Shown: positions 1 through 26,355 of the stretch, piece by piece
How positions within the stretch are numbered: the first letter of the stretch is position 1
How the letters are laid out: each line of letters starts with the position of its first letter
Notes under the pieces: model-generated
The model's input: only the letters and a program-made list of their open reading frames with translations
Database searches by the model: none
Told to the model about the DNA's origin: nothing
Virus record (IMG/VR): IMGVR_UViG_3300022937_000126
Coordinates: 1-26,355 of that record
DNA: 26,355 bases
Reading direction: 5' to 3' (one strand)
Origin: a virus
Program-made: the position numbers and the translations under genes

Positions 1-803
1 TTAATCTGTGAATCAATTACAACTGCTTTGTAATTCCAAAGACCTTTAGAATGTCCAAGTTCAACTAAATCGCAGACCGCCTGTTCTATTGCGGATCTTA
101 CTGCATAATTAACTGGTTCATTAACTGCCGTACCTGCTTCTACTTCAATTAGTTTAGTGCCTAGGTCTAAAAATTTAAACACATCAGCACCAGTAGAATA
201 ACTGGCAATATCTTTTTGTGTGGCAACAGAAAGAAGTACTTCTCCTGTGCTTACTGAAACAATACGCATAGACACTGTTACTGTGTCAACACGATATTGA
301 GTTTTGGCACCAATACCTAGGTATCGTGCACCAGAGCCGCCTGTGACCACATTTGAATCATAGCCTACCACGGCACCTTCTACAATTAAACCAGCAAAGA
401 GTAAAGGTTTTAATTTTTTATCTTTTTCGTCTTCATACTGTTCTCTGGTTGAACGAATCAATTGTCGTTCTTTGACTAGATTGTCTAGTCCTCCTCTTTC
501 AACAACTGTGAACCATGTGTTGTTGCCCACTTCTGACAGTGCTTGAATTACCCAAACTTCAGCACCTTGAGTTACAGCACTTGAAAGTTGTGAAAAATTT
601 TGACTTGGTTTACGTTGTCCTGTTTTGTCATTAAAACTGTAAACTGCTATTGTGATTTTTGGACCATCAAGTTCTGGTATTGCTTTGAACTGTTGTTGTA
701 AGGGTGCCACCGCAGTTTCTGGTGCTTTGAATCCATTTACACCGGCATGGCCGGCACATCCTGCCAATGCTATCAATAATAACAAAGCAAATATCTGTCT
801 CAT
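1..803 (-). CDS. csgG: CsgG-like outer-membrane curli secretion lipoprotein (3' end cut by window)
   Basis: CsgG forms the nonameric outer-membrane pore that exports curli subunits in bacteria. The ATG is at 803 and the frame stays open to base 1, giving about 267 residues. E. coli CsgG is 277 residues, so only a few residues should be missing. Residues 1-17 are a lipoprotein signal ending in the lipobox LAGC. Family hallmarks follow: the ITIAVYSFNDKTGQ strand and VVERGGLDNLVKERQLIR, close to the conserved VVER..L..LL.ERQ segment of CsgG. It starts 1 nt after the csgF stop (TAATATG), so the two are translationally coupled. No curli subunit gene (csgA/csgB) is in the window. The family call is firm. 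The role in a phage (secretion, envelope permeabilisation or host-surface change) is unknown. Confidence 0.93.
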   Translation of the reverse strand, partial: MRQIFALLLLIALAGCAGHAGVNGFKAPETAVAPLQQQFKAIPELDGPKITIAVYSFNDKTGQRKPSQNFSQLSSAVTQGAEVWVIQALSEVGNNTWFTVVERGGLDNLVKERQLIRSTREQYEDEKDKKLKPLLFAGLIVEGAVVGYDSNVVTGGSGARYLGIGAKTQYRVDTVTVSMRIVSVSTGEVLLSVATQKDIASYSTGADVFKFLDLGTKLIEVEAGTAVNEPVNYAVRSAIEQAVCDLVELGHSKGLWNYKAVVIDSQI

Positions 804-804
804 A

Positions 805-1263
805 TTAAAATCCAAAATCTCCTACCGGCACAGTAAGTGTTGTTATAGTACCATCTGCTTCTGTGATTCTAATTGATATTTCACCTAGATCTACATCTTT
901 TTCCCAATAAATGGTGGCACCTTCAATTTCAGCAGTGCCTGTGGTCTGTCCTCCAGATGAAAACATGTTGTCTACCAACTGTTTAGATAGGTTGGCATAG
1001 ATTCTTGATTCCACATTGGCAATGAATTTGTTTATTACTTCATTATTTTCATCACGTTCTGCGTCTCTGAGTTTCTTTTCTATGTCTTTACGTAATTCTT
1101 CTTTACGTTGAAATTGCAGTTGCTCTGTGGCTAACACATGATTTGAATAGCCATTTCCACTAAAACTAGGATTTGAAAATTCTTGCGTTAATTCGCTCGC
1201 CTGAATAGAGCTCATAGAAGCAACAAATGTCACAAAAATGCTGTAATATATATATTTTTTCAT
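805..1263 (-). CDS. csgF: CsgF-like curli assembly factor
   Basis: CsgF binds the extracellular side of the CsgG pore and couples secretion to nucleation of curli fibres. This 152-residue protein has a cleavable-looking signal peptide (residues 1-22, ending SIQAS). Next comes LTQEFSNPSFSGNGYSNH, which matches the N-terminal CsgF signature (FRNPNFGGNP in E. coli) that plugs into CsgG. A charged, probably coiled-coil middle (residues 50-85) replaces part of the E. coli sequence. The C-terminus is beta-rich and ends in a Phe, as in CsgF. It lies directly upstream of csgG, the reverse of the E. coli csgDEFG order only in lacking csgD and csgE. A TTAAATA box lies about 30 nt upstream of the start. 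Confidence 0.85.
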   Translation of the reverse strand: MKKYIYYSIFVTFVASMSSIQASELTQEFSNPSFSGNGYSNHVLATEQLQFQRKEELRKDIEKKLRDAERDENNEVINKFIANVESRIYANLSKQLVDNMFSSGGQTTGTAEIEGATIYWEKDVDLGEISIRITEADGTITTLTVPVGDFGF

Positions 1264-1293
1264 AATTTTAATCTAAATAAGTGTAGTTATAAC

Positions 1294-1300
1294 TATTTAA
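1294..1300 (-). promoter_or_regulatory. Late-type promoter box TTAAATA upstream of csgF
   Basis: TTAAATA on the minus strand resembles the T4 late consensus TATAAATA. It lies 30 nt before the csgF ATG, in a gene-free stretch (1264-1366) that otherwise shows only AT-rich sequence. No clear Shine-Dalgarno is visible in the predicted leader. Confidence 0.4.
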
Positions 1301-1366
1301 GTTATGAAGATTAAAGTTATGTTTATACTTTACTTGATAAGGTGTTTATTTTAGTTTTTTTTGATG

Positions 1367-1442
1367 TGGTGGAGGATAGCGGGATCGAACCGCTGACCTC
1401 CTGAATGCAAATCAGGCGCTCTCCCGGCTGAGCTAATCCCCC
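1367..1442 (-). tRNA. tRNA-Ala (anticodon TGC)
   Basis: The minus strand folds into a full cloverleaf. The acceptor stem GGGGGAT pairs with ATCCTCC (one G-U). The D arm is GCTC/GAGC, the anticodon stem CCTGA/TCAGG holds loop TTTGCAT (anticodon TGC, reads GCA codons), and the T arm is AGCGG-TTCGATC-CCGCT. The discriminator is A and CCA is encoded. It begins 4 nt after the stop of the upstream oxygenase-like gene, so it is probably cotranscribed with it. Confidence 0.95.
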
Positions 1443-1446
1443 ACAT

Positions 1447-1998
1447 TTACCCAGAAATAATTGTTTTAACATCATTAAAACTATATTCTGCTGGAATGCT
1501 CCAACTAATAGAGCTTCTTGGTAATTTACTATTGCTATTTATTAATACTTCATGTGGATATTCAGTATTAAACAGTACCGGGTCAGTTAAGCAAAATCTA
1601 TATACTTCTTTGATATCTTCTTTTTTGACAGGAAATGACCAGAAACCAGATCCTAGATCATCTATGATATCTTTGCGTTCTTTGTCAGTTAATTTTTTTA
1701 TGAACTCATAAACCACTGTTTCACTGTCATTGCAGTTCCATAACGGAATGTTTATTGTGCATTTTCTAGGATTGTCAACGTGTAACGGTAATGATTCAAC
1801 CATGTCATAAAAATTATACAGTTCTCCTAAAAATGGATATTTTTCCATTAGAAAAACCATGTATGGTTCTTTGTTTGCTGATCGTTGAAAATGCCCAAGT
1901 CCCTCTTCAATATCATCTTTGCGTCTGTGATATATCATTCGCATTTCATTGATATCACAAAAACTCTCATCTAATGTAAAAACATATTGGTTGTTCAT
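1447..1998 (-). CDS. Putative 2OG-Fe(II) oxygenase-like protein
   Basis: A protein of 183 residues without strong identity to a named family. It does show a plausible double-stranded beta-helix metal site: HVD at 73-75 (an HxD pair), His149 in NTEYPHEV, and Arg161 in PRSSISWS, which would hold 2-oxoglutarate. These sit in beta-rich segments (CTINIPLWNC at 80-89). Such proteins hydroxylate amino acids, bases or small metabolites; no substrate can be read here. A GTAAATA late-type box overlaps the stop codon of the upstream DUF2061-like gene, giving a leader of about 20 nt. Alternatively it could be a cupin-like protein without catalysis. Confidence 0.5.
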   Translation of the reverse strand: MNNQYVFTLDESFCDINEMRMIYHRRKDDIEEGLGHFQRSANKEPYMVFLMEKYPFLGELYNFYDMVESLPLHVDNPRKCTINIPLWNCNDSETVVYEFIKKLTDKERKDIIDDLGSGFWSFPVKKEDIKEVYRFCLTDPVLFNTEYPHEVLINSNSKLPRSSISWSIPAEYSFNDVKTIISG

Positions 1999-2017
1999 TT
2001 TAATATAACTCTAATAA

Positions 2018-2251
2018 TTATTTACTAAATTTACGCCAAGTAGTGTGTAAAATATAAAACCACACACCATTAATACAGGGTTCTACAAGAGCATTTAAAG
2101 CCGCAAGATTTAAAGTGGTACCAGTTATAAAATAAGTTGTGGTCATTGCTATAACAATATGACCAAATGTATAAATTAATGCCAATGTTAAAGACGACTT
2201 AGTCATTAACTTCTTAAAAGTATTGAAAATACCATTATTAAATTCACTCAT
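2018..2251 (-). CDS. Small membrane protein, DUF2061-like
   Basis: A 77-residue protein with two hydrophobic helices (about residues 21-42 and 47-68) and charged ends. The pattern KSSLTLALIYTFGHIVIA, then TTYFITGTTLNLAALN and YILHTTWRK, matches the DUF2061 pattern (Lys/Arg, helix, T..ITG, ALxxxxxEP, YxLHxxxW). DUF2061 proteins are inner-membrane proteins of unknown function, in some bacteria linked to sulfur assimilation loci. Here the gene follows a sulfotransferase-like gene. It has its own strong sigma70-like promoter, TTGACA-N17-TATAAC, whose -10 box ends 6 nt before the ATG. This suggests early expression, possibly from a leaderless mRNA. Confidence 0.7.
   Translation of the reverse strand: MSEFNNGIFNTFKKLMTKSSLTLALIYTFGHIVIAMTTTYFITGTTLNLAALNALVEPCINGVWFYILHTTWRKFSK
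2019..2025 (-). promoter_or_regulatory. Late-type promoter box GTAAATA
   Basis: GTAAATA overlaps the TAA stop of the DUF2061-like gene and would serve the oxygenase-like gene that starts at 1998. The predicted leader is roughly 15 nt. Confidence 0.4.
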
Positions 2252-2257
2252 TCTAAT

Positions 2258-2286
2258 GTTATAACAAACTTTTATCTAGTTGTCAA
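2258..2286 (-). promoter_or_regulatory. Sigma70-type (early) promoter of the DUF2061-like gene
   Basis: A consensus TTGACA (-35, 2281-2286), a 17-bp spacer and TATAAC (-10, 2258-2263). Exactly 6 nt (ATTAGA) separate the -10 from the ATG at 2251. Transcription should therefore start at or next to the start codon, with no room for a Shine-Dalgarno. Confidence 0.75.
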
Positions 2287-3035
2287 GACAAAACACTTGT
2301 GGGCTTGGTTGTGGAATAACCTAATCTTTCCAACAAACTTTTATCTAAATGCTTGTCTACTACATTAATCTGTTCTTGGGTCAAAGTTTTTATAGTATCT
2401 GAATTATAGTAATCTTGAGTTTTCTTTTTTCTTAATGATTCTGTCCAGTTTTCACTCAATGTGACATGAGCAGGAATAATCAAATGCGAATGCTTAATCA
2501 CATTCCATTTGTATATTTGACTTAAATCTTCTATGAACTGTAAACAGTTTTCTAAATCTAACAGTGTTTCATATTTTACTAGATTCCAATTTTTAATTTT
2601 TGGTTGAAGATCAATCCAATTGTTATAAAATTCATTGTACAATTTTACCAATTCAACAAGATTAATTTTTTCAAGTTTCCAAGAATTATTCATGTTTTTC
2701 TTTGTCAAAGTACTGAATTCTAATATGTGATCATGTGGAAGAGCATCTAAATCATACAGCACTTGAGGTCTACGTATTTTGATGTCTACAGGATTTCTTA
2801 AAATACTTTCAACCCATTTGTATGGATTTTTTGAAACCAAAATATGTGCGTGATTTTCTTTTTTTTGTTTTTTGTATAACTTGTAAACAAACTCAGTGTC
2901 AGGTTCATGTTTCCATGCATACTTGATCAAACTTTGATCTAGATTTAAACTTTGAAAATTGTTGATAACTAACTGGTGAGTAAAGTTAGTTCCAGTTCTT
3001 TGTAATCCAAACACAGTGAATGATTTGACCAACAT
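2283..3035 (-). CDS. Sulfotransferase-like protein
   Basis: The 250-residue protein starts MLVKSFTVFGLQRTGTNFTH. FGLQRTGTNF matches the 5'-phosphosulfate-binding P-loop of PAPS-dependent sulfotransferases. SKNPYKWVESILR (near residue 90) resembles their 3'-phosphate-binding RNPY..xxS segment. The region around VKYETLLD is also typical of the fold. The enzyme would move sulfate from PAPS to a glycan, lipid or small molecule; the acceptor is unknown. A longer reading from TTG at 3053 is possible, but ATG at 3035 fits the domain start. A TTAAATA box overlaps the ferredoxin stop codon 8 nt before the start. Confidence 0.7.
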   Translation of the reverse strand: MLVKSFTVFGLQRTGTNFTHQLVINNFQSLNLDQSLIKYAWKHEPDTEFVYKLYKKQKKENHAHILVSKNPYKWVESILRNPVDIKIRRPQVLYDLDALPHDHILEFSTLTKKNMNNSWKLEKINLVELVKLYNEFYNNWIDLQPKIKNWNLVKYETLLDLENCLQFIEDLSQIYKWNVIKHSHLIIPAHVTLSENWTESLRKKKTQDYYNSDTIKTLTQEQINVVDKHLDKSLLERLGYSTTKPTSVLS

Positions 3036-3042
3036 AACATAA

Positions 3043-3348
3043 CTATTTAACAATCCTTAAAGTCATGCCATCTAAAGCATCTGTTAATTGTATTTGGCAA
3101 CTCAACCTACTGTTTTTGTTTCTGTCTTCACTGTCTAACAATGCATCTTCATCTTCATCCATTTTAGGTAACAGATTCAAATACTGATCATCAATTTTGA
3201 CATGACAAGTGGCACAGGCACAACAGCCTCCACACATCATAAAATTGTCTGGTGAAATTTCTTTTTTGATCACTGAAGCCAACGTTTCATATGATTGTGC
3301 TTCAATTACATGTTCTTTGTCGTCTCTGTCAATTACTGTTAGTTTCAT
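3043..3348 (-). CDS. 2Fe-2S ferredoxin, ISC/adrenodoxin type
   Basis: This 101-residue ferredoxin has Cys39-x5-Cys45-x2-Cys48 in MCGGCCACATCHV, and Cys84 in RLSCQIQL. That spacing and the H-V after the third cysteine are typical of bacterial ISC/adrenodoxin-type ferredoxins, not of the plant-type PetF usually carried by cyanophages. Cys42 and Cys43 are extra cysteines beside the cluster loop. It would donate electrons to an oxygenase, reductase or Fe-S assembly step; two oxygenase-like genes and a CDGSH-like gene are in the window. It has a near-consensus sigma70 promoter 6 nt upstream of the ATG, so early expression is likely. Confidence 0.9.
   Translation of the reverse strand: MKLTVIDRDDKEHVIEAQSYETLASVIKKEISPDNFMMCGGCCACATCHVKIDDQYLNLLPKMDEDEDALLDSEDRNKNSRLSCQIQLTDALDGMTLRIVK
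3044..3050 (-). promoter_or_regulatory. Late-type promoter box TTAAATA
   Basis: TTAAATA overlaps the TAG stop of the ferredoxin gene and lies 8 nt before the sulfotransferase-like ATG at 3035. Confidence 0.4.
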
Positions 3349-4367: not shown

Positions 4368-4685
4368 TTAAACTGAAATTTCTTTGTCTTTGTTGGTTTG
4401 AATTTGTTTTTCTAGTTCTTTTTTCTTTTTTTCGTTTTCAATGTCTTGCATCATTTTAAGTAATTTTTCACCAACAGATTTAAATTCTTGATACTTTGGG
4501 TCATTTAACACTTTGTCACTTAAAAACTTGTCCATAAAATCAAAATTCTGTGGTATTTCATTTGGCCATGCTTTGGTAGGAAAAGCACCTAAAGCCAATG
4601 CACCTGCACCTGCCACAGCAGATTTGCCCATGGCTTTCATAAAATTTCTTCTGTTATTCTCTGTTGTGATTTCACTTATTCTCAT
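4368..4685 (-). CDS. Small protein with capsid-targeting-like N-terminus followed by a Tat-like signal
   Basis: A 105-residue protein. Residues 1-9 (MRISEITTE) fit the N-terminal motif of the block. Directly after come NNRRNFMKAMGKS (residues 10-22), matching the twin-arginine motif (S/T)RRxFLK, and a hydrophobic Ala/Gly/Leu stretch (23-35). A possible signal-peptidase site (TKA, residue 39) follows. The remainder is a charged helix, Lys/Glu-rich towards the end. If the first nine residues are removed in the prohead, a Tat-like signal would lie at the new N-terminus. The hydrophobic stretch could instead be a membrane anchor. It overlaps the SOD-like gene upstream (ATGA). Confidence 0.65.
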   Translation of the reverse strand: MRISEITTENNRRNFMKAMGKSAVAGAGALALGAFPTKAWPNEIPQNFDFMDKFLSDKVLNDPKYQEFKSVGEKLLKMMQDIENEKKKKELEKQIQTNKDKEISV

Positions 4686-10695: not shown

Positions 10696-11309
10696 TTAAC
10701 AAATGCTCCAATTCTACCATGCATATCAGGATGTTTTATATATTTGTACCCTTCAGGTGCTTTGGTGCTTTGTCCTTCCCATACAGGTAGATATTCTTGT
10801 CTATCACCTTCAAAGTCTACATTGTGTCTAAAATGCATTTCAATGACCTTACCACCAATGTATTCAACATTTAATCTTGGTCTATTTCCAAAATGCTTTT
10901 TGATAAGCGGATGTAACGGCACTTGCTCATCTACACGAATCCATTTATCCCAACGTTGTAATGTGTTTTCTTTTTTGAATCCTTCTACACATCTTACTTG
11001 TTTACCTTTATCATAATCAACTGTAAAATGTCTACCTTTAAACCATTCACACCAAAATGTTCCTATAGGTAAATGATTTGTGTTTTTTTTGAGGTGCATT
11101 TTCTTTGCACCCATTCCTAAACCAAAAACATTAAGCACAGGTCTTATAATATAATCACCTTCTTTTGGAACTTCAATACCTGCTGGACCACAAGTGTATC
11201 CTAATTTTTTTGAAAGAATCAGTTTATCTAATGCCCATAAATCATCTATTTTTGGATTCTTCCAATACAAATCTTCTTCATCAGGACCAATGACTTCGTT
11301 TAATCTCAT
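10692..11309 (-). CDS. Hypothetical protein with capsid-targeting-like N-terminus, possibly ATP-grasp-like
   Basis: A 205-residue protein starting MRLNEVIGPDEEDLYW; L-N-E at 3-5 is a possible protease site. GDYIIRPVLNVFGLGMGAKK has the look of an ATP-grasp nucleotide-binding strand and glycine loop. RPRLNVEYIGGKVIEMHFRH resembles the later ATP-grasp strand carrying metal-binding acidic residues. The protein is short for an ATP-grasp enzyme and I cannot see the complete set of catalytic residues, so this is weak. It sits between two other motif-bearing genes with 4-nt overlaps on both sides. Confidence 0.6.
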   Translation of the reverse strand: MRLNEVIGPDEEDLYWKNPKIDDLWALDKLILSKKLGYTCGPAGIEVPKEGDYIIRPVLNVFGLGMGAKKMHLKKNTNHLPIGTFWCEWFKGRHFTVDYDKGKQVRCVEGFKKENTLQRWDKWIRVDEQVPLHPLIKKHFGNRPRLNVEYIGGKVIEMHFRHNVDFEGDRQEYLPVWEGQSTKAPEGYKYIKHPDMHGRIGAFVK

Positions 11310-13690
11310 TTCTTTTTACGCCCTGCACAGTGAGCCTTTTGACTAAAACCTTTGGGATTTGTGCAATCAATACTTTTTTTATATTTTGCACTCCATTTTT
11401 CTTGTAATTGTTTTAGCTCTTGTTCTAAAATTTCAATTCTTTCTTTGACTGGTAGCATGTAATGATTTTTTCTACCTTTGGTCAGCAAAGGTAATGTTCT
11501 ATATGCTTTGAACCATTTGTCAGTTCCAGGTTCAGAAGTCTTTTTCATTTTTTGATATTTAGATGTGCCTGGCAATGTTAATAAACTTTTATCACCTTTG
11601 TCATTTTGAAATTTTAATTCATCTTCTACTATAGCACTAAAAATACTTTTCTTTTCTCGTATGTTTGGTGGTCTTCCATCTCTGTCTACTTTGAATCCTA
11701 ATTTAGCAGATTGTTTTGTTATGGCATCAACACCAACATCTACTGTGGTATTAACTCCTTTGACAACTCTGCCTCCCCATTCATTGACCTGTTTAGTGTC
11801 AGGATCATGATAAAGATAAGTGTGCTTGGTGTCTCTTGAATTTAAACCAGTGTGCTTTTTGATACGTTTCTTGTATTCATTTTTTACTTTTTCGCTTTGA
11901 AAAGTAACAAGTGTATCTGGTTTACCATTTGGTCCATATTTTTTTCTATCTGCCTGATCCAAGTTAGATATATCTTTTGTGAGTTCATAATAATCACTTT
12001 TGCTGTCTATGTCAACAACTAATGTGTTATCAGGAAAAGGTATTAAATCTCCTTCATTGACTTGAGCAAAACTACCTGAATTAATTGCTTTGTTGATAGG
12101 TGCAACTTTTGAAAGGTCTTGTTTTTCAACATACTTCAATGCTTGTGAAACTCTGTTTAAATTGTCTTTGTTGGCTTGATATCTAATTCCAATACCGCCT
12201 TTGGCTTGCCATCTTTCAATGTTGCTTGGTTTGTCATCAATCAATATGTTTGGCAACCCTGTGGTTTTGTCTACAGCATAACTTTCTTTTCTGCCTGTTA
12301 TGATAACACCATTTGGTGTGAACCCGTTTGATCTTAACCAATCCAACTTATGCTTTTTTGAATTCTCATGATCTCCACGCAAAGGAGAACTGCAAATATA
12401 CCATTCGCCACCTGTGAAACTTTTTACAATGTTAATTAATTCTTTTGATGTTGCAAACAAAGGCAATGTTGAAAAGAAGTCTGTACCTGCTATTGCTTTG
12501 ATACTGTCTTCAACACTGATTTCACCTTTGTCTTTCCAATGATTTACTTTTCTAAATTTTGCCAATGCTGAAAAAAAGTCAGCAATAACACCATCCATGT
12601 CAACGTACACTTTTGGTTTTTGTGAAACTTCTTCTTGTATTCCTTCTGCAGGATCAAGTTTATTAGGATCTAATACTTTTACTTTGATTGATTTATTTAA
12701 AGCCAATGCCGCATATAATCTTGTTCTTCCTCCAACAACAACCATTCCAGAATTAGTTTTTAATACTACCGGCGATTCATATTTGCCTGTGTTGATATCA
12801 TTAATTAATCTACCAACATCATATCCTCTGTTTCTTCCTTCTGCTTGATCACGTTGTTGCATGATTTTAGCAAACTGTTGAGGTGCTTCAGGTGTGCCTT
12901 TGATCTTTAAAATACTTCTAAGTGCTTGTATGTCTGCAGGACCTTTGTTGGCAAGATTTTGGAGAGTTGCAATTTGATTTGGATTTATTATACTTGTTTG
13001 TGCATTTCGAATCATAGGTACAAGTTTCTCAACTGATTGTTGATTGTTTTGTAAACCTAAAGTTTTAACAAACTTTTGTATATTAGGTTCTTGTTGTCCT
13101 AAGAGTTCCCATGCTTCTTCTTCAGTACTTTCTGTTGTTTCAGTAGGTATATTCATTCCTGTTCTTACAGCGTCATACATTTCTTTTGCAATACCTGGAT
13201 TAGCAACACCTTGTTTAAAACTTTCAAAATCACCATCCACTGCCGCTTGACGCATTTTACTTGCACTCATGCCTTCAACATTGTCATCGGACTCTTCGTC
13301 CCTAACACCAGCAGTTACAACTTTGATAGAATCAAATTTATAATCTTTACCATTGTACTTTGGTAAAAGTTCAGAAAAATAAGGAACTCTATCAGATCCT
13401 ACAACAAGCACAACATTTGCATAACCTTTTTTCTGTAAAGTCTGCATGGCTTGTATTATGGTCTTGACAGTTGGATCACCTATGGTGATATCTGAAAAAC
13501 TCTGTTTAGCAAATTTTAACTTTTGCTCAAAAGACAAAGGATCTTTTTTGGCATTTTGAGTGTGGGTTAAAAATAAAAAAGGTTTTCCAGGTAAACTTTT
13601 GATTGTGTCAATAACTTTTTTGTGACCAATAGTAGGAGGATTCATTCTACCAAATGTGAAAACTGCTGTGTTAAGTTCGTTTGCTCTCAT
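11306..13690 (-). CDS. Multidomain nucleotidyltransferase / ParB-like / HAD phosphatase protein
   Basis: A protein of 794 residues combining several domains. Residues 8-175 form a cytidylyltransferase-like domain: GRMNPPTIGHKK (HxGH-type motif) and GMSASKMRQAA (ISSTxxR-type motif). Such domains join a nucleotide to a phosphorylated metabolite. Residues 285-345 contain VVVGGRTRLYAALALN, like the ParB/Srx-type fold. Residues 358-522 are a HAD phosphatase of 5'-nucleotidase type (VYVDMDGVIADF, CSSPLRG, LIDDKPSN). The C-terminal 270 residues are unrecognised and basic, ending with Cys776 and Cys788 (SIDCTNPKGFSQKAHCAG). The start MRANEL resembles the N-terminal motif of the neighbours but has no (L/I)xE site. 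The combination suggests nucleotide or cofactor (NAD-type) metabolism. Confidence 0.75.
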   Translation of the reverse strand: MRANELNTAVFTFGRMNPPTIGHKKVIDTIKSLPGKPFLFLTHTQNAKKDPLSFEQKLKFAKQSFSDITIGDPTVKTIIQAMQTLQKKGYANVVLVVGSDRVPYFSELLPKYNGKDYKFDSIKVVTAGVRDEESDDNVEGMSASKMRQAAVDGDFESFKQGVANPGIAKEMYDAVRTGMNIPTETTESTEEEAWELLGQQEPNIQKFVKTLGLQNNQQSVEKLVPMIRNAQTSIINPNQIATLQNLANKGPADIQALRSILKIKGTPEAPQQFAKIMQQRDQAEGRNRGYDVGRLINDINTGKYESPVVLKTNSGMVVVGGRTRLYAALALNKSIKVKVLDPNKLDPAEGIQEEVSQKPKVYVDMDGVIADFFSALAKFRKVNHWKDKGEISVEDSIKAIAGTDFFSTLPLFATSKELINIVKSFTGGEWYICSSPLRGDHENSKKHKLDWLRSNGFTPNGVIITGRKESYAVDKTTGLPNILIDDKPSNIERWQAKGGIGIRYQANKDNLNRVSQALKYVEKQDLSKVAPINKAINSGSFAQVNEGDLIPFPDNTLVVDIDSKSDYYELTKDISNLDQADRKKYGPNGKPDTLVTFQSEKVKNEYKKRIKKHTGLNSRDTKHTYLYHDPDTKQVNEWGGRVVKGVNTTVDVGVDAITKQSAKLGFKVDRDGRPPNIREKKSIFSAIVEDELKFQNDKGDKSLLTLPGTSKYQKMKKTSEPGTDKWFKAYRTLPLLTKGRKNHYMLPVKERIEILEQELKQLQEKWSAKYKKSIDCTNPKGFSQKAHCAGRKKK

Positions 13691-13854: not shown

Positions 13855-14886
13855 TTATTTAGTTAAAACAAAAAGATCATACAACTGCTGTGATGCTAGA
13901 TTTTTACCTTTGGCTTCTGCTTGTATATCAAAATATTCACCAAAGCTCAATGCCCATTCATTTACTGTTTGATTAGGGAAAAAGTCGCTGTGTGCTCTGA
14001 GCTTTTGCTTTTTACACCCTAGTTCAAGCAGTTTTTTAATGTCATGCATACCTACATGTGTTTGCTCACCTAATTCTGCTGGTGCCAGTGCTTCATCACG
14101 TGAATATGAGTAATGTAGTGTTGGCCTACTGCCTCTCCAACTGTCTACTACTCGTTTGACTCTGTCATCGTTGGATTGTATGTATTCTTCGTCTCTGATC
14201 CAGTGATGATGTATATCTAAAACCAATGCACAGTGTTTTTCCAACTGTAGACTTGCATCAAGTCCCCAACCCATTTCATCATTCTCAATAGTAAGCAAAT
14301 TACGTGCTTCAGGTGACAGTTTTGGTATCATATCTATAATACCTTCAGGTCCACGTCTGCCTGATATATGCACATTCAATTTACAACCATCTTGAAAACT
14401 TTTACCAAAACCCATCCATCTGGCCATGTCTGCATGATATTCAAATTCCAGTCTGCTTCGTTCAGCAACATCTTCTCTGTCACTTGCTAACACACAAAAC
14501 TGTCCTGGATGAAAACTGATTTTGACTCCTAAACGTCTAGATGCTTCACCAACAGGTGCAAATATTTTTGCTAGATGATTTTGTATATGTGACTGTTGCC
14601 ACCATTCGATCCAGTTGGGTTCAGTATAGCCTTGTAGCATTTCTGATCCAAGTCTGACCATTCTTCGTTCTTCTGGCAGTGATCCAACACGTTCAACCAT
14701 TTTCAATGCCGCTTGAGCATTGTGATTCATTATGTCCCATTGTCGTTGTTCTGCATCTTCAGGATGCTCTCTTAACCAACGCATGGTCGTGCTTCTGCCA
14801 TTGAGATCTCTGTCTTTGGCATTGACTTTCATGCCTTTGCATTCACTAGGATCGTTAAGCCATTTACAGCAAAAGCCTATTTTCAT
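13855..14886 (-). CDS. uvsE: UV DNA damage endonuclease (UvdE/UvsE)
   Basis: A 343-residue TIM-barrel endonuclease that nicks DNA 5' of UV photoproducts and some abasic sites. Family segments are all present: MKIGFCCKW at the start, VKISFHPGQFCVLAS, LNVHISGRRGP, LLTIENDEMGWG, ALVLDIHHHW, PTLHYSYSRD and LRAHSDFFPN. The His, Asp and Glu residues that bind the three metals lie in these motifs. Length fits the family. It overlaps the DexA-like gene (TAATG) and is probably cotranscribed from the sigma70-type promoter upstream of it, suggesting early-middle genome repair, fitting a sunlit marine phage. Confidence 0.95.
   Translation of the reverse strand: MKIGFCCKWLNDPSECKGMKVNAKDRDLNGRSTTMRWLREHPEDAEQRQWDIMNHNAQAALKMVERVGSLPEERRMVRLGSEMLQGYTEPNWIEWWQQSHIQNHLAKIFAPVGEASRRLGVKISFHPGQFCVLASDREDVAERSRLEFEYHADMARWMGFGKSFQDGCKLNVHISGRRGPEGIIDMIPKLSPEARNLLTIENDEMGWGLDASLQLEKHCALVLDIHHHWIRDEEYIQSNDDRVKRVVDSWRGSRPTLHYSYSRDEALAPAELGEQTHVGMHDIKKLLELGCKKQKLRAHSDFFPNQTVNEWALSFGEYFDIQAEAKGKNLASQQLYDLFVLTK
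13856..13862 (-). promoter_or_regulatory. Late-type promoter box CTAAATA
   Basis: CTAAATA overlaps the TAA stop of uvsE and lies 19 nt before the 46-residue gene, leaving room for its AAGGAG ribosome binding site. It could start the late transcription of the internal-protein block below. Confidence 0.45.
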
Positions 14887-22825: not shown

Positions 22826-23380
22826 TTAACTAGATGCGTGTACGTTAAATGCTACTGTTATTCGTGTGTTTTCAATGTTTTGCTTGTCTACTCTGTGTTC
22901 CAGCCAAGGTGGAAAGATTATGCAATCACCTTCTTGTACAGTAGGTGTGATCATTGTGTATTCTTCTTTGTAATCACAAGAATTAAACAAATGACGCATG
23001 GGACTTAAAAAAGTAGTACCTGAAGCACCTTTGGGCATCTGAACATACACTATGCCTGATGCCAATGCTCCCACTGTGTGATGCGAATGTGCTTCTTGCA
23101 TGAAGTCACTGTTATAAACATTGTACCACATGTGACATTTGACTTTGACATTCATGCCAATTGACTCTTTTAAGAATTCCACAATCAAAGGATTTATTTG
23201 TTCAAACACTTCTTGATCTTGCCAGGCATCTTCTGCCCCGGCCGCCAGCGAACTGATCACCTGAGATTGTTTTGGCCAAGGATTTGGCAACTTCAAAGTA
23301 GTCACATGTTCTCTAATAGAATTAGCTATTCTGTTCTTGTCAATTTGAATATTCTTTTTTACAAAAGGAACAGAAAACAT
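22826..23380 (-). CDS. 2OG-Fe(II) oxygenase
   Basis: A protein of 184 residues. MQEAHSHHTVGALASGIVYV (HSH at 98-100), GTTFLSPMRHLF, and the C-terminal EGDCIIFPPWLEHRVDK with His162 and Arg173 in TRITVAFNVH match the phage 2OG-Fe(II) oxygenase family (H-x-H-P..LSG.YY..., GD...FPSWL.H.V, R....FN). In this family the iron ligands come from the H-x-H/D segment and the distal His. The reaction needs 2-oxoglutarate and oxygen; the substrate is not visible. Many T4-like marine phages carry several of these. Start codon overlaps the upstream stop. Confidence 0.82.
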   Translation of the reverse strand: MFSVPFVKKNIQIDKNRIANSIREHVTTLKLPNPWPKQSQVISSLAAGAEDAWQDQEVFEQINPLIVEFLKESIGMNVKVKCHMWYNVYNSDFMQEAHSHHTVGALASGIVYVQMPKGASGTTFLSPMRHLFNSCDYKEEYTMITPTVQEGDCIIFPPWLEHRVDKQNIENTRITVAFNVHASS

Positions 23381-23658
23381 TAATTCAATGACTTCTTAAC
23401 TCTGTTGGCAAATTTTTTAGCAAACTGATCTAAAAATTCATGATGCTCATGGTCTAATCCATGGTATTCATAAATCATAGATTCTATAACTTTCAATGCA
23501 GGTACAATTTTCATTTGCTGTAATTCTTCATCAATTTCTATTCCGTTACGAACTAGTTCTTCAACAATGGCATATATCATATTTTGATATTGTGTTTTTG
23601 CTAAATCTTCTTTGCTTTTTTTCTTATAATCTGTTAGATTAACTATTTTGTTTTTCAT
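23380..23658 (-). CDS. Hypothetical helical protein
   Basis: About 92 residues from ATG at 23658 (MKNKIVNLTDYKKKSKEDL). TTG at 23682 or ATG at 23673 are possible longer starts. The rest is helical: MIYAIVEELVRNGIEID, VPALKVIESMIYEYHGLDHE, HHEFLDQFAKKFANRVKKS. I know similar short proteins from T4-like marine phages but no function. It overlaps the end of the upstream gene and runs into the oxygenase gene, so it belongs to the same operon. Confidence 0.6.
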   Translation of the reverse strand: MKNKIVNLTDYKKKSKEDLAKTQYQNMIYAIVEELVRNGIEIDEELQQMKIVPALKVIESMIYEYHGLDHEHHEFLDQFAKKFANRVKKSLN

Positions 23659-23818
23659 GTTCTTTAAATCCATAAATGTCAATTGCTGTTACACTTGCTT
23701 CAAGATTGTCAATGTCATCCTGATGCATTTTGTTTCTGTTTTGCTCTAAATACTTCAAAGCATAGTCACTCACACAACGAATTGCGTGTAGAAACAGCTC
23801 ATGTTCTTTTTCACTCAT
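23639..23818 (-). CDS. Small hypothetical protein (59 residues)
   Basis: A 59-residue ORF too short for routine gene calling: MSEKEHELFLHAIRCV, SDYALKYLEQNRNKM, then HQDDIDNLEASVTAIDIYGF. It is acidic and helical. Its ATG overlaps the stop of the upstream miniprotein (ATGAGTGA) and its end overlaps the next gene by 20 nt. The dense overlap chain on both sides supports it as real. Function unknown. Confidence 0.6.
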   Translation of the reverse strand: MSEKEHELFLHAIRCVSDYALKYLEQNRNKMHQDDIDNLEASVTAIDIYGFKEHEKQNS

Positions 23819-23942
23819 GGTCCTTGTCCTTTCTGTTTATGTTTTTATCTTCACTTTCCATTGCTTTGACCCATACTACAAAAAAAGCAAATGTGATCAC
23901 AATACCTAATACTAGTAGGCCTATTCCTTGTGTGAATGTCAT
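23811..23942 (-). CDS. Single-TM miniprotein (43 residues)
   Basis: A short ORF with ATGA overlap to the CDGSH-like gene upstream. Residues 5-26 are a hydrophobic helix (QGIGLLVLGIVITFAFFVVW), followed by a charged tail (VKAMESEDKNINRKDKDHE). The N-terminus is very short, so the tail is likely cytosolic. Possible roles are a small holin or antiholin, or a modulator of a host membrane complex. No direct evidence chooses between them. Confidence 0.65.
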   Translation of the reverse strand: MTFTQGIGLLVLGIVITFAFFVVWVKAMESEDKNINRKDKDHE

Positions 23943-24319
23943 TTAGATTTCTCCTTTTGTTGATGATCTATTATTGATTTGAGATGATTTGTGAGTCCCA
24001 ATAAACTTGATCCTGCTCCACGCAAACCTGACCAAAATGGTCGATAATCATTTGGATTTTTATCTCTTGGAAAATTGTCTGCTTCCATCAACAAGTTTTG
24101 AAAATTTTTAATAATTTCATTCACACGTTCTTCAGTGTAAATGTGTGGCATATCAGATTTTTTTTCATCTTGTTGAGTTTGTTGTTTTACTTCTTGTAAA
24201 GTTTCTTCGCTGAAAGGCTTTTTTTCTTTTAAAAATGCTTGATATTCTTCTTCGCTAAATCTGTGTAAACCAATACATATTCCTGATTCTGACCTCCCAC
24301 ACCAACATGTTCCTGCCAT
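23939..24319 (-). CDS. CDGSH-like Cys/His protein
   Basis: A 126-residue protein. The N-terminus CWCGRSESGICIGLHRFSEE (Cys5, Cys7, Ser10, Cys15, His19) resembles the CDGSH iron-sulfur motif C-x-C-x2-S-x3-P-x-C-D-G-S-H. The gap before the third Cys is one residue shorter and Asp and Ser are replaced (C-I-G-L-H). The 3Cys-1His set that holds a 2Fe-2S cluster is kept. It may also bind zinc. The remainder is charged and helical (ETLQEVKQQTQQDEKKS, ERVNEIIKNFQNLLMEA). It is flanked by two single-TM miniproteins with tight overlaps or spacing. Confidence 0.6.
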   Translation of the reverse strand: MAGTCWCGRSESGICIGLHRFSEEEYQAFLKEKKPFSEETLQEVKQQTQQDEKKSDMPHIYTEERVNEIIKNFQNLLMEADNFPRDKNPNDYRPFWSGLRGAGSSLLGLTNHLKSIIDHQQKEKSK

Positions 24320-24323
24320 TACA

Positions 24324-24449
24324 TTATCCTTTCAACGATATATCCATAATTAATAAACTGATAAAAACAATCAATACTGCATAGATCCAAGGTTCTGTTA
24401 GATAATCTTTGATTGTTTCAACTAATTGTTTATAAAATATTTTAAACAT
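24324..24449 (-). CDS. Single-TM miniprotein (41 residues)
   Basis: A short ORF starting inside the last codons of the acidic gene upstream (GATGTTTAA carries both the ATG and the stop). It reads MFKIFYKQLVETIKDY, LTEPWIYAVLIVFISLL, IMDISLKG: an amphipathic start followed by one membrane helix (about 19-36). The stop is 5 nt before the CDGSH-like ATG, and the stop region includes AAAGGAT, a ribosome binding site for it. Translational coupling and a membrane location are likely; role unknown. Confidence 0.65.
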   Translation of the reverse strand: MFKIFYKQLVETIKDYLTEPWIYAVLIVFISLLIMDISLKG

Positions 24450-25131
24450 CGTCACCTTCTGCTACATAAAAAGAACTGCTCTTGCCTGTGGAATCTTCTT
24501 CAAGGTGATAACTGTCACCGTTGTATAAAAATTCGTTAAACACTTTGAATCCATCACAGTCTTCATATGCAATTTCTAATTTTTTAAAATCAAATCCATC
24601 TGGACCTGTTTTCACAATGTCTGGTGAGTGCCAGCCACCCTTGTTGAAATACTGCCCAAACATATAGTAATTGTCTTTGCAACTTTGTGTGCCAGAATTG
24701 TGTTCTGCTTCACAGGTAATTTTTGCTCCACGATCTTCAAACTCTTCCATGTTCACAGTTTCATCTTCTATGTAGTTGCCATTTTCATCTGTTAACGCAT
24801 TACCTTCTTTGTCTACTTCTGATATTGTCATGTATTGACTATCTGCGAATTCTGGTCCTGACAAATGACAGATATCTTCATATTCGTAAAATTCTCGATC
24901 GAATTGTGCTTGTTTGGGTACATCCTTGTTTGCTTCTTCTATGTCCCAACCTATATTTGTCATGTATTCCTCAAAGTCAGATTGATCTTTGTCCGCCCAA
25001 TATTCATATTGTTCTTTGGTAATTGATCCCATAGCAACTTCTCCACCATATCTTCCAAAATCAATTTTGAAAAAACGTTCTGGTGTTTTGAGCTTTTTAA
25101 TCAACGCCTGTTTCTTTTTCAATGATACCAT
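24442..25131 (-). CDS. Acidic hypothetical protein
   Basis: A 229-residue, strongly acidic protein (many Asp, Glu and Tyr). Recognisable features are the basic start VSLKKKQALIKKLKTPERFF, the aromatic segment FGRYGGEVAMGSITKEQYEYW, and three spaced cysteines in the second half (ITCEAEH, QSCKDNY, YEDCDGF). I do not recognise the family. The start overlaps the upstream stop (TAATG) with GGAGG further upstream. The charge would suit a DNA mimic or a partner of a basic protein, but that is only a guess. Confidence 0.6.
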   Translation of the reverse strand: MVSLKKKQALIKKLKTPERFFKIDFGRYGGEVAMGSITKEQYEYWADKDQSDFEEYMTNIGWDIEEANKDVPKQAQFDREFYEYEDICHLSGPEFADSQYMTISEVDKEGNALTDENGNYIEDETVNMEEFEDRGAKITCEAEHNSGTQSCKDNYYMFGQYFNKGGWHSPDIVKTGPDGFDFKKLEIAYEDCDGFKVFNEFLYNGDSYHLEEDSTGKSSSFYVAEGDDV

Positions 25132-25505
25132 TATTCGTGTTCTCCTCCTGGATCACGTGGATCCAATTTAACTTTGTAAGGATTACCATGCTTGTCTCTG
25201 TAAAAAACATAGTCCCTTGCTCTACCATAAGAATGATATGATCCAAAGTTGTACTTGTTGTTTTTTATGTTATGAAATTGTTTGAATGTGTAATACATGG
25301 CCATAATAATTGCTATATGCCCTACTACTAGTCCTGTCCAAATACTTGCATACAGTTGTCCCCAGATATACAATGTAAATGCTGTTGACCATACAAATGA
25401 CAATACTGTCAATAACTGCAACCTTACTGTTTTTGGTAATGCACGGAGATCATTCTTTGTGTCATCAAACAATATTGTTGCTGTGTTAATCATCCAATTC
25501 TTCAC
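25131..25505 (-). CDS. Membrane protein with two TM helices
   Basis: A 124-residue protein. It starts with GTG at 25505, overlapping the previous stop (GTGA) with AGGAG upstream. Hydrophobic helices lie at about 28-50 (RLQLLTVLSFVWSTAFTLYI) and 56-75 (WTGLVVGHIAIIMAMYY). The tail is hydrophilic and Tyr/Asp-rich (GSYHSYGRARDYVFYRDKHG). Marine T4-like phages have similar small membrane proteins without assigned function. It could sit in the inner membrane and act on host physiology or lysis timing. Confidence 0.65.
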   Translation of the reverse strand: MKNWMINTATILFDDTKNDLRALPKTVRLQLLTVLSFVWSTAFTLYIWGQLYASIWTGLVVGHIAIIMAMYYTFKQFHNIKNNKYNFGSYHSYGRARDYVFYRDKHGNPYKVKLDPRDPGGEHE

Positions 25506-25722: not shown

Positions 25723-26355
25723 TTATAATTTTTCTCCCACTTCAAAACCTCTAAATCTTAAAAATCTAGGAAATCGTAAACTGTATTCATCTGTTGCATC
25801 TTGATTTTGTGTGATTGCATCTGCTCTGACTTCCACAATCTGCCCAATCAGTTTGTCTTTGTGTTTCCAAAATTCATCTCTGTTGTCATCAGTTAATCCT
25901 GAACCCACATTGGTTTTAATAAACTTGCCTTCATCTGTGCCTTCAACAATTAATGCACCTAATTTACCAACATTACGTCCTGTGCCTTCTTCAACTGCTT
26001 TGACTTCTAAACTGACTTCTATAAAAGGTTTTACTTTCAACCATAAACTTGATCGTTTACATTCGTAAACACCACTAGTTGGTTTTATCATAATACCTTC
26101 ATATCCTTTGTCTATACAAATCTTATTGTAATCAGCAAACTGTTTTTGTCCATCATCATCACTCAAATCCATTTTTACATATTCTACCAATTGTACATTT
26201 GGACCATATTTAAAATTTTCAAGCATTTTTTTTCTATTTGTAATAGGCTGATGACACTTTCCTTTTTTAAAATCTTCTAGAGGCATACAATCAAAAAGAT
26301 TTAATATTGCATCATCAGTCTTTGCACCACTTTTTCTGTGTATTTCTCGCATAAG
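25723..26355 (-). CDS. ATP-dependent DNA ligase, T4-like (5' part outside window)
   Basis: The reading frame is open to the window edge, so the first visible ATG (26352) is probably internal. T4 ligase is 487 residues; about 210 are visible here. KGYEGIMIKP is ligase motif IV and LWLKVKPF motif V of the nucleotidyltransferase domain. VEEGTGRNVGKLGALIVEGT and FIKTNVGSGLTDDNR follow as the OB-fold region, matching T4 gp30 (IKVNAGSGL). The adenylated-lysine motif KxDG lies beyond the edge. The enzyme seals nicks in replication, repair and recombination. The call to T4-type is from the C-terminal similarity. Confidence 0.9.
   Translation of the reverse strand, partial: LMREIHRKSGAKTDDAILNLFDCMPLEDFKKGKCHQPITNRKKMLENFKYGPNVQLVEYVKMDLSDDDGQKQFADYNKICIDKGYEGIMIKPTSGVYECKRSSLWLKVKPFIEVSLEVKAVEEGTGRNVGKLGALIVEGTDEGKFIKTNVGSGLTDDNRDEFWKHKDKLIGQIVEVRADAITQNQDATDEYSLRFPRFLRFRGFEVGEKL

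Follow-up and report, generated by a model that had tools for sequence, protein, structure and literature searches.

Organization of the locus

What is a 126-amino-acid (aa) protein with the Cys/His ligands of CDGSH proteins doing in a phage, and do the membrane miniproteins encoded on both sides of it take part? The question is raised by a linear virus record from IMG/VR, 26,355 bases long, the whole of which was analyzed and is called the window here. A run of genes on its minus strand lies behind a DNA ligase gene, whose 3′ part (25723 to 26352) is cut by the window end and which served as the anchor for finding related phages. After the ligase follow a 68-aa gene, a 124-aa membrane-like gene (25131 to 25505; conserved in L122, L126, L149, and L151), a 229-aa gene (24442 to 25131), a 41-aa single-transmembrane (TM) miniprotein gene (24324 to 24449), the 126-aa gene (23939 to 24319), a 43-aa single-TM miniprotein gene (23811 to 23942), and small genes, among them a 59-aa gene from the open reading frame (ORF) list (23639 to 23818) whose start overlaps the 43-aa stop. 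A 2OG-Fe(II) oxygenase gene (22826 to 23380; PF13759, E 2.7e-16) ends the run. The 229-aa gene is kept in the ligase block of relatives, where it matches counterparts in L124, L131, L137, L149, L151, and others at 55 to 61%.

The sequence-only reading had described the three small genes as joined by overlap or near-overlap. The named junctions are present: in GATGTTTAA, the stop of the 229-aa gene and the start of the 41-aa gene overlap by 8 nucleotides (nt), and ATGA is shared by the end of the 126-aa gene and the beginning of the 43-aa gene. The correction needed here is a 4-nt gap (24320 to 24323) that separates the 41-aa stop from the start of the 126-aa gene. Purine-rich sites (AGAAGG, AAAGGA, and AGGAG, assigned by eye) were found 5 to 8 nt before the ATG of all three genes, and the AAAGGA site of the 126-aa gene sits within the 3′ end of the 41-aa gene. 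With these ribosome-binding-site-like sequences and the junctions, the three small genes are real. The 41-aa ORF starts with ATG; it would be two residues longer if it began at the in-frame GTG at 24455. Kyte-Doolittle analysis gave a single hydrophobic segment each for the 43-aa (peak of 2.83) and 41-aa (peak of 2.38) proteins and none for the 126-aa protein.

Further minus-strand genes of the window encode a CsgF-like curli secretion component (805 to 1263; PF10614, E 3.4e-14), a component found here in a phage record; a 105-aa protein (4368 to 4685) without a Pfam family, whose N terminus, RRNFMKAMGKSAVAGAGALALGA, resembles a twin-arginine signal by eye; a 794-aa protein with cytidylyltransferase-like and NT5C domains (11306 to 13690); and a homologue of the UV endonuclease UvdE (13855 to 14886; PF03851, E 1.8e-29).

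The Cys/His loop is one residue shorter than the CDGSH loop

The 126-aa protein carries its ligand set (C5, C7, C15, and H19) in a loop at residues 5 to 19, encoded at 24263 to 24307 on the minus strand (CWCGRSESGICIGLH; C-x-C-x7-C-x3-H). The window contains a single instance of this Cys/His pattern; 100 dinucleotide shuffles gave none. The excerpts of PMC5859297 and PMC3174974 that we consulted give the CDGSH consensus as C-x-C-x2-(S/T)-x3-P-x-C-D-G-(S/A/T)-H, i.e., C-x-C-x8-C-x3-H. The window loop reads C-x-C-x2-S-x4-C-I-G-L-H. It thus retains the serine and glycine of CDGSH (CISD) proteins along with all four ligands, whereas it has seven instead of eight residues between the second and third cysteines (x7 rather than x8) and lacks the proline, the aspartate, and the S/T/A residue. 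The initial description of a 3Cys-1His set with CIGLH in place of CDGSH stands, with the correction that the loop is shorter than that of CDGSH and lacks its proline; the ligand set is that of CISD proteins, and the strict CISD motif is absent. The SEC-C zinc motif, which ends in two neighboring ligands, was ruled out by eye, as the last ligands here are C-x3-H.

A widespread family of miniature CDGSH-like proteins

Searches with the 126-aa protein itself gave no useful match in Pfam, PHROGs, NCBIfam, or, by sequence, the PDB, and a peptide-pattern search for relatives in viral contigs returned none. Matches to granzymes, to the NCBIfam PrimPol model (18 bits against a cutoff of 200), and to six mycobacteriophages (tblastn against 50,697 phage records; E 0.5 to 0.9) were taken as chance. 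The DNA pattern C.CG.[ST]..G.C.G.H, in contrast to these searches, retrieved at least 120 viral stretches (L002 to L121), in each of which the motif lies in an open frame; a search for CIGLH ends gave 28 stretches. The viral members are mostly short, a typical one being CGCGRSPTGKCIGWHGLTEEQY. In L034, a minus-strand frame of 531 residues carries CACGLSATGMCDGSH at its C terminus.

The patterns fix C, C, G, S/T, (G), C, G, and H, and these positions were not scored as conservation; the same holds for the ligands, which are invariant in profiles A1 and A3 but whose positions were fixed by the search pattern. At positions left free by the first pattern, the 129 distinct viral cores share R5 (128 cores), P7 (111), T8 (105), W14 (87), L17 (101), and an aromatic residue at position 22 (123). 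In the window copy, the P-T that usually follows the serine is missing, and no relatives were found for its residues beyond about 45 (the C-terminal 80). A further scan yielded 27 stretches, two of which were already known (L053 and L088). A matching ORF was recognized in 19 of the 25 new ones and in none of L179, L182, L188, L191, L196, and L199. Five of the 19 (L180, L183, L184, L189, and L194) were dropped, as they share one unrelated ORF, a 51-aa cysteine-rich frame (CWCGPTKSKCCSGYH) that is probably antisense to a conserved gene.

A stricter pattern applied to genome contigs gave at least 119 stretches, 118 of them with a matching frame (L447 is the exception). Their labels comprise Rhodobacteraceae, SAR86, SAR116, Methylophilaceae, Pelagibacteraceae, and Poseidoniales archaea, and the carriers include the complete LSUCC0401 chromosome as well as HTCC2083 and HTCC2255 scaffolds of megabase size; some of the genome-contig stretches may be prophage or phage contamination, and L457 has a phage-type tail. 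The distribution in cells is patchy: within the family of G001, 2 of 100 genomes carry the gene, G001 itself being one of the two. Judged by its sequence, the 126-aa protein belongs to a widespread, unnamed family of miniature CDGSH-like (mini-CDGSH) proteins with viral and cellular members.

Representative members matched no PHROGs or NCBIfam family, and in Pfam only those with CDGSH ends matched zf-CDGSH, below the cutoff. Two family queries found nothing in the 50,697 phage records; a true-CDGSH query gave three weak matches there. The core letters CGCGRSPTG were found in none of the papers searched; judged by title and opening of the abstract, none of those on CDGSH and phage concerned phage CDGSH proteins, and none combined CDGSH with pelagiphage.

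Intermediates connect the family to true CDGSH proteins

The Pfam CDGSH model (PF09360) did not match the window protein, and the connection was sought through other members. Canonical x8 CDGSH loops occur in at least 120 viral stretches (L203 to L322). When the motif was removed from 36 true-CDGSH viral proteins, six of them (L208, L245, L282, L283, L319, and L322) had tails that matched those of x7 members at E <1e-14 with 64 to 76% identity. Only these six were used, because shuffled tails also match at weaker E values (90 of 720 at E <0.05 and 3 of 720 below 1e-3). One of the six, L208, reached E 2.1e-6 and 28.3 bits against zf-CDGSH, just under the cutoff of 29.5.

Some x7 members end in true CDGSH. 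Profile A4, built from 10 such members, found CDGSH proteins in 17 of its 18 PDB matches (best, 3tbn at E 2.4e-4). Profile A3, made of CIGxH-type members including the window protein, matched A4 with a probability of 98.7 and an E value of 2.8e-16; its pure CIGxH rows retrieved no CDGSH protein from the PDB. Profile A1 found CDGSH proteins in 15 of 16 PDB matches, but it contains true-CDGSH rows and is circular in this respect. Since A3 alone finds none, we base the link on A4, on the A3/A4 match, and on the tails only. Homology to CDGSH proteins is thereby supported through intermediates and not directly, and the CDGSH-like identity proposed for the 126-aa protein is supported by the tail and profile evidence.

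Structures were modeled for two proteins, the one from the window (pLDDT 80.9, pTM 0.41) and the 41-aa family member L409 (pLDDT 85.3, pTM 0.54). Both models show the loop and helices and no strand of three or more residues; they are single chains, and a dimer sheet would still be possible. Fold searches gave no usable match. CISD folds have an N-strand and a P motif according to the published CDGSH work cited above, and a beta-sandwich with these elements was not seen in the single-chain models. As the viral true-CDGSH genes share tails with the x7 family, we read the window protein as a derived CDGSH relative that would have no beta-cap.

The predicted lack of a beta-cap also fits another interpretation, in which the four ligands hold a structural zinc: the protein would be a small protein- or nucleic-acid-binding module, a zinc knuckle that kept the ligands of a CDGSH ancestor and lost the cluster. 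3Cys-1His sets are known to bind zinc as well, the loop and key residues differ from those of CDGSH proteins, and viral members frequently have nucleotide-metabolism neighbors (see below). We nevertheless consider a zinc knuckle unlikely, for the x7 loop has been exchanged with a true CDGSH loop ahead of the same tail, and mini-CDGSH genes occur with SUF, ferredoxin, glutaredoxin, AhpC, and radical SAM genes.

The TM miniproteins are probably separate genes

The tight junctions in the window had suggested that the CDGSH-like protein is held at the membrane by its two TM neighbors, the three forming one unit that acts in redox or lysis timing. We therefore surveyed the neighbors of 163 viral family genes. 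A TM mini-ORF was found directly upstream in 13 cases, directly downstream in 7, and on both sides in 3; among 2,070 background ORFs, the corresponding values were 3.7%, 3.3%, and 0.1%. The three bracketed genes exceed this background, but they are the window gene and a near-identical pair (L037/L083) and so amount to two cases; the order TM, CDGSH-like, TM is otherwise not kept, and in relatives mini-CDGSH genes adjoin the ligase without flanking TM mini-genes. Remote relatives of the 43-aa protein occur in L131, L132, L134, and L136 (E 0.0045 to 1.7), and no mini-CDGSH gene adjoins them in L132 and L134, the two that were inspected. The 41-aa protein has a possible, weak relative in L122 (7585 to 7701; E 0.5). 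Membrane placement does exist in the family, by fusion: three members (L031, L059, and L075) have an N-terminal TM helix of their own. They remain from 5 TM-bearing frames among 285, after L369 (start probably too early) and L386 (which runs into cytochrome b561, possibly by a sequencing error) were set aside. In spite of these fusions, a three-gene membrane module with conserved synteny finds little room in the survey, and we regard it as highly improbable. For lysis timing by the CDGSH-like protein, we found no evidence.

The miniproteins could instead be of a lysis (holin-like) type, with the CDGSH-like gene unrelated to them. In L134, a cell-wall hydrolase gene (PF07486), a 43-aa-like TM gene, a second TM mini-gene, and the ligase gene follow each other by overlaps, and different TM mini-genes occupy the matching block in L122 and L125. 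The L134 phage (84-kb record) also has two copies of the Cys/His motif, about 60 to 65 kb away from the 43-aa-like gene, the mini-CDGSH gene lying at about 65 kb. Still, the best 43-aa match is weak (E 0.0045), no cell-wall hydrolase was seen beside the miniproteins in the window, and the small genes there have no Pfam family. A holin-like role is therefore possible though doubtful. The two flanking genes probably belong to the run as small phage genes in their own right, and their TM miniproteins are not likely to be obligate partners.

Some family members lie among iron-sulfur and redox genes

In the window itself, the neighbors of the mini-CDGSH gene are not Fe-S assembly genes; the 2OG oxygenase gene lies 0.6 kb away, accompanied by genes without a family. 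Related phages were found through the ligase, and 2 of the 16 records searched carry the mini-CDGSH family. L470 is from the phage of L134, whose ligase is 76% identical to that of the window. It contains a run (59 to 3077) of SufB (PF01458, E 1.4e-81), mini-CDGSH, SufE (PF02657, E 3.9e-26), FeS_assembly_P (PF01883), and ThyX, which is a partial viral SUF operon. The second motif copy of this phage is in a 358-aa protein encoded just after a glutaredoxin gene (PF00462). In another phage (L084), mini-CDGSH overlaps FeS_assembly_P by 4 nt, and a 4Fe-4S ferredoxin follows. The slot after the ligase is taken in relatives by mini-CDGSH (L149, L150, and L153), SufE (L151), or FeS_assembly_P (L144), and L126 has SufB with DUF1289 before the ligase. 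At least one of SUFBD_core, FeS_assembly_P, and Fe-S_biosyn is present in 7 of 15 related records (G009, G010, G012, G015, G016, G018, and G019).

Two observations stand beside these. SUFBD_core genes are also present in G010, G012, and G015. The DUF1289 gene of L126 (4577 to 4801, plus strand; PF06945, E 3.2e-16) directly follows sufB, in the slot that mini-CDGSH has in L470; DUF1289 is likewise a small cysteine-containing protein, with no sequence relation to mini-CDGSH seen.

Of the 471 loci searched, 36 have AhpC no more than 3 kb from the motif, with both loop types represented (10 distinct proteins at 70%), and 8 have glutaredoxin; neither was found at any of 56 ligase loci. The motif stands at the end of radical SAM proteins in L012 and L080 (assigned by Pfam for L080). 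The 118 cellular loci have LysR (15), HxlR (14), glutathione S-transferase (GST; 10), pirin (6), DoxX (6), and cytochrome b561 (5) as neighbors, each class being assigned by Pfam on one representative; this set resembles the quinone/electrophile stress genes of E. coli. Viral neighbors in nucleotide metabolism are a GTP cyclohydrolase-like protein (39 loci), PRTase (30), IMPDH (24), and HIT (21). None of these counts are independent, as each cellular class comprises 2 to 5 and each viral class 5 to 22 distinct proteins at 70%. Near a cellular mini-CDGSH gene, a glutamate synthase-like protein with two N-terminal CDGSH motifs was also encountered (L429, 2575 to 4119, minus strand; PF01645 and PF09360); its sequence cluster spans 11 loci.

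Placement with Fe-S assembly or redox genes was thus found in L470, L084, and L471 and at the AhpC and glutaredoxin loci. A redox or Fe-S role, as the sequence-only reading had envisaged, gains support from the SUF, ferredoxin, AhpC, glutaredoxin, and radical SAM contexts.

A candidate iron-sulfur cluster carrier

What is observed is a sequence family, the tie of this family to true CDGSH loops, and the contexts of its genes, and we think it probable that the 126-aa protein is a miniature [2Fe-2S] protein that serves as a cluster or electron carrier in the Fe-S and redox toolkit of the phage. Mini-CDGSH proteins would consist of a helix preceded by a loop that carries three cysteines and one histidine and would do without the beta-sandwich of known CDGSH proteins. 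The four residues would most likely hold a solvent-exposed [2Fe-2S] cluster, and this cluster, or its electrons, may be passed to Fe-S proteins of the virus or the host, mini-CDGSH then being part of what such phages carry for Fe-S assembly and redox. We infer the metal, the transfer role, and the benefit to infection. A carrier would be useful in infection because such phages bring their own Fe-S and iron enzymes, in the window a 2Fe-2S ferredoxin-like protein (Fer2; 3043 to 3348, minus strand; PF00111, E 2.4e-7) and the 2OG oxygenase. Since relatives have mini-CDGSH among genes that build Fe-S clusters, these viruses probably use it to handle such fragile cofactors in infection. Against a carrier we count the short loop without the proline, the aspartate, and the S/T/A residue; the lack of a PDB CDGSH match for A3; the models without a beta-cap and the fold searches without a match; the window gene's own surroundings, in which no Fe-S assembly genes occur; the nucleotide-metabolism neighbors of many viral members; the interdependence of the neighbor counts; and, for the window copy, the missing P-T and the C-terminal 80 residues with no relatives found.

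A bolder version can be put forward only tentatively: mini-CDGSH might be the smallest NEET-like [2Fe-2S] carrier, with about 40 residues, a reshaped seven-residue loop, and no beta-cap, which phages carry together with SUF pieces of their own to seize or repair host Fe-S clusters and which is sometimes anchored in the membrane, as mitoNEET is.

The analysis would provide a name and a testable function for a family that planktonic bacteria and archaea share with at least 120 viral contigs and that has no Pfam, PHROGs, or NCBIfam family in the searches made. If the carrier function is true, a likely cluster carrier joins the few known phage Fe-S genes, and mini-CDGSH proteins would be among the smallest natural frames for asking what NEET-type cluster formation, stability, and transfer need. 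The function would also be relevant to the way in which phages deal with scarce iron and oxidative stress.

Comparison with known systems

Marine phages carry genes for an A-type carrier, IscU, Grx, and PaaD according to the parts of PMC5332604 consulted and sufE and nifU according to those of PMC8940887; the word CDGSH does not appear in the main text of either. Mini-CDGSH resembles these phage-borne genes in its presumed tie to Fe-S cluster supply, as it stands among SufB, SufE, and FeS_assembly_P, and differs from all of them in being another protein family. With the CISD/NEET proteins (PF09360; PDB 3tbn and 3tbm, mitoNEET, and Miner1), it shares the three cysteines and one histidine, the serine after CxCxx, and the C-x-G-x-H end, and the two groups are linked by members that combine an x7 loop with a true CDGSH end and by others that have the same tails behind an x8 loop. 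Unlike CISD/NEET proteins, the mini-CDGSH proteins are modeled without a beta-cap or P motif. The window protein is thus not a CISD protein in the strict sense; we propose that it works like one.
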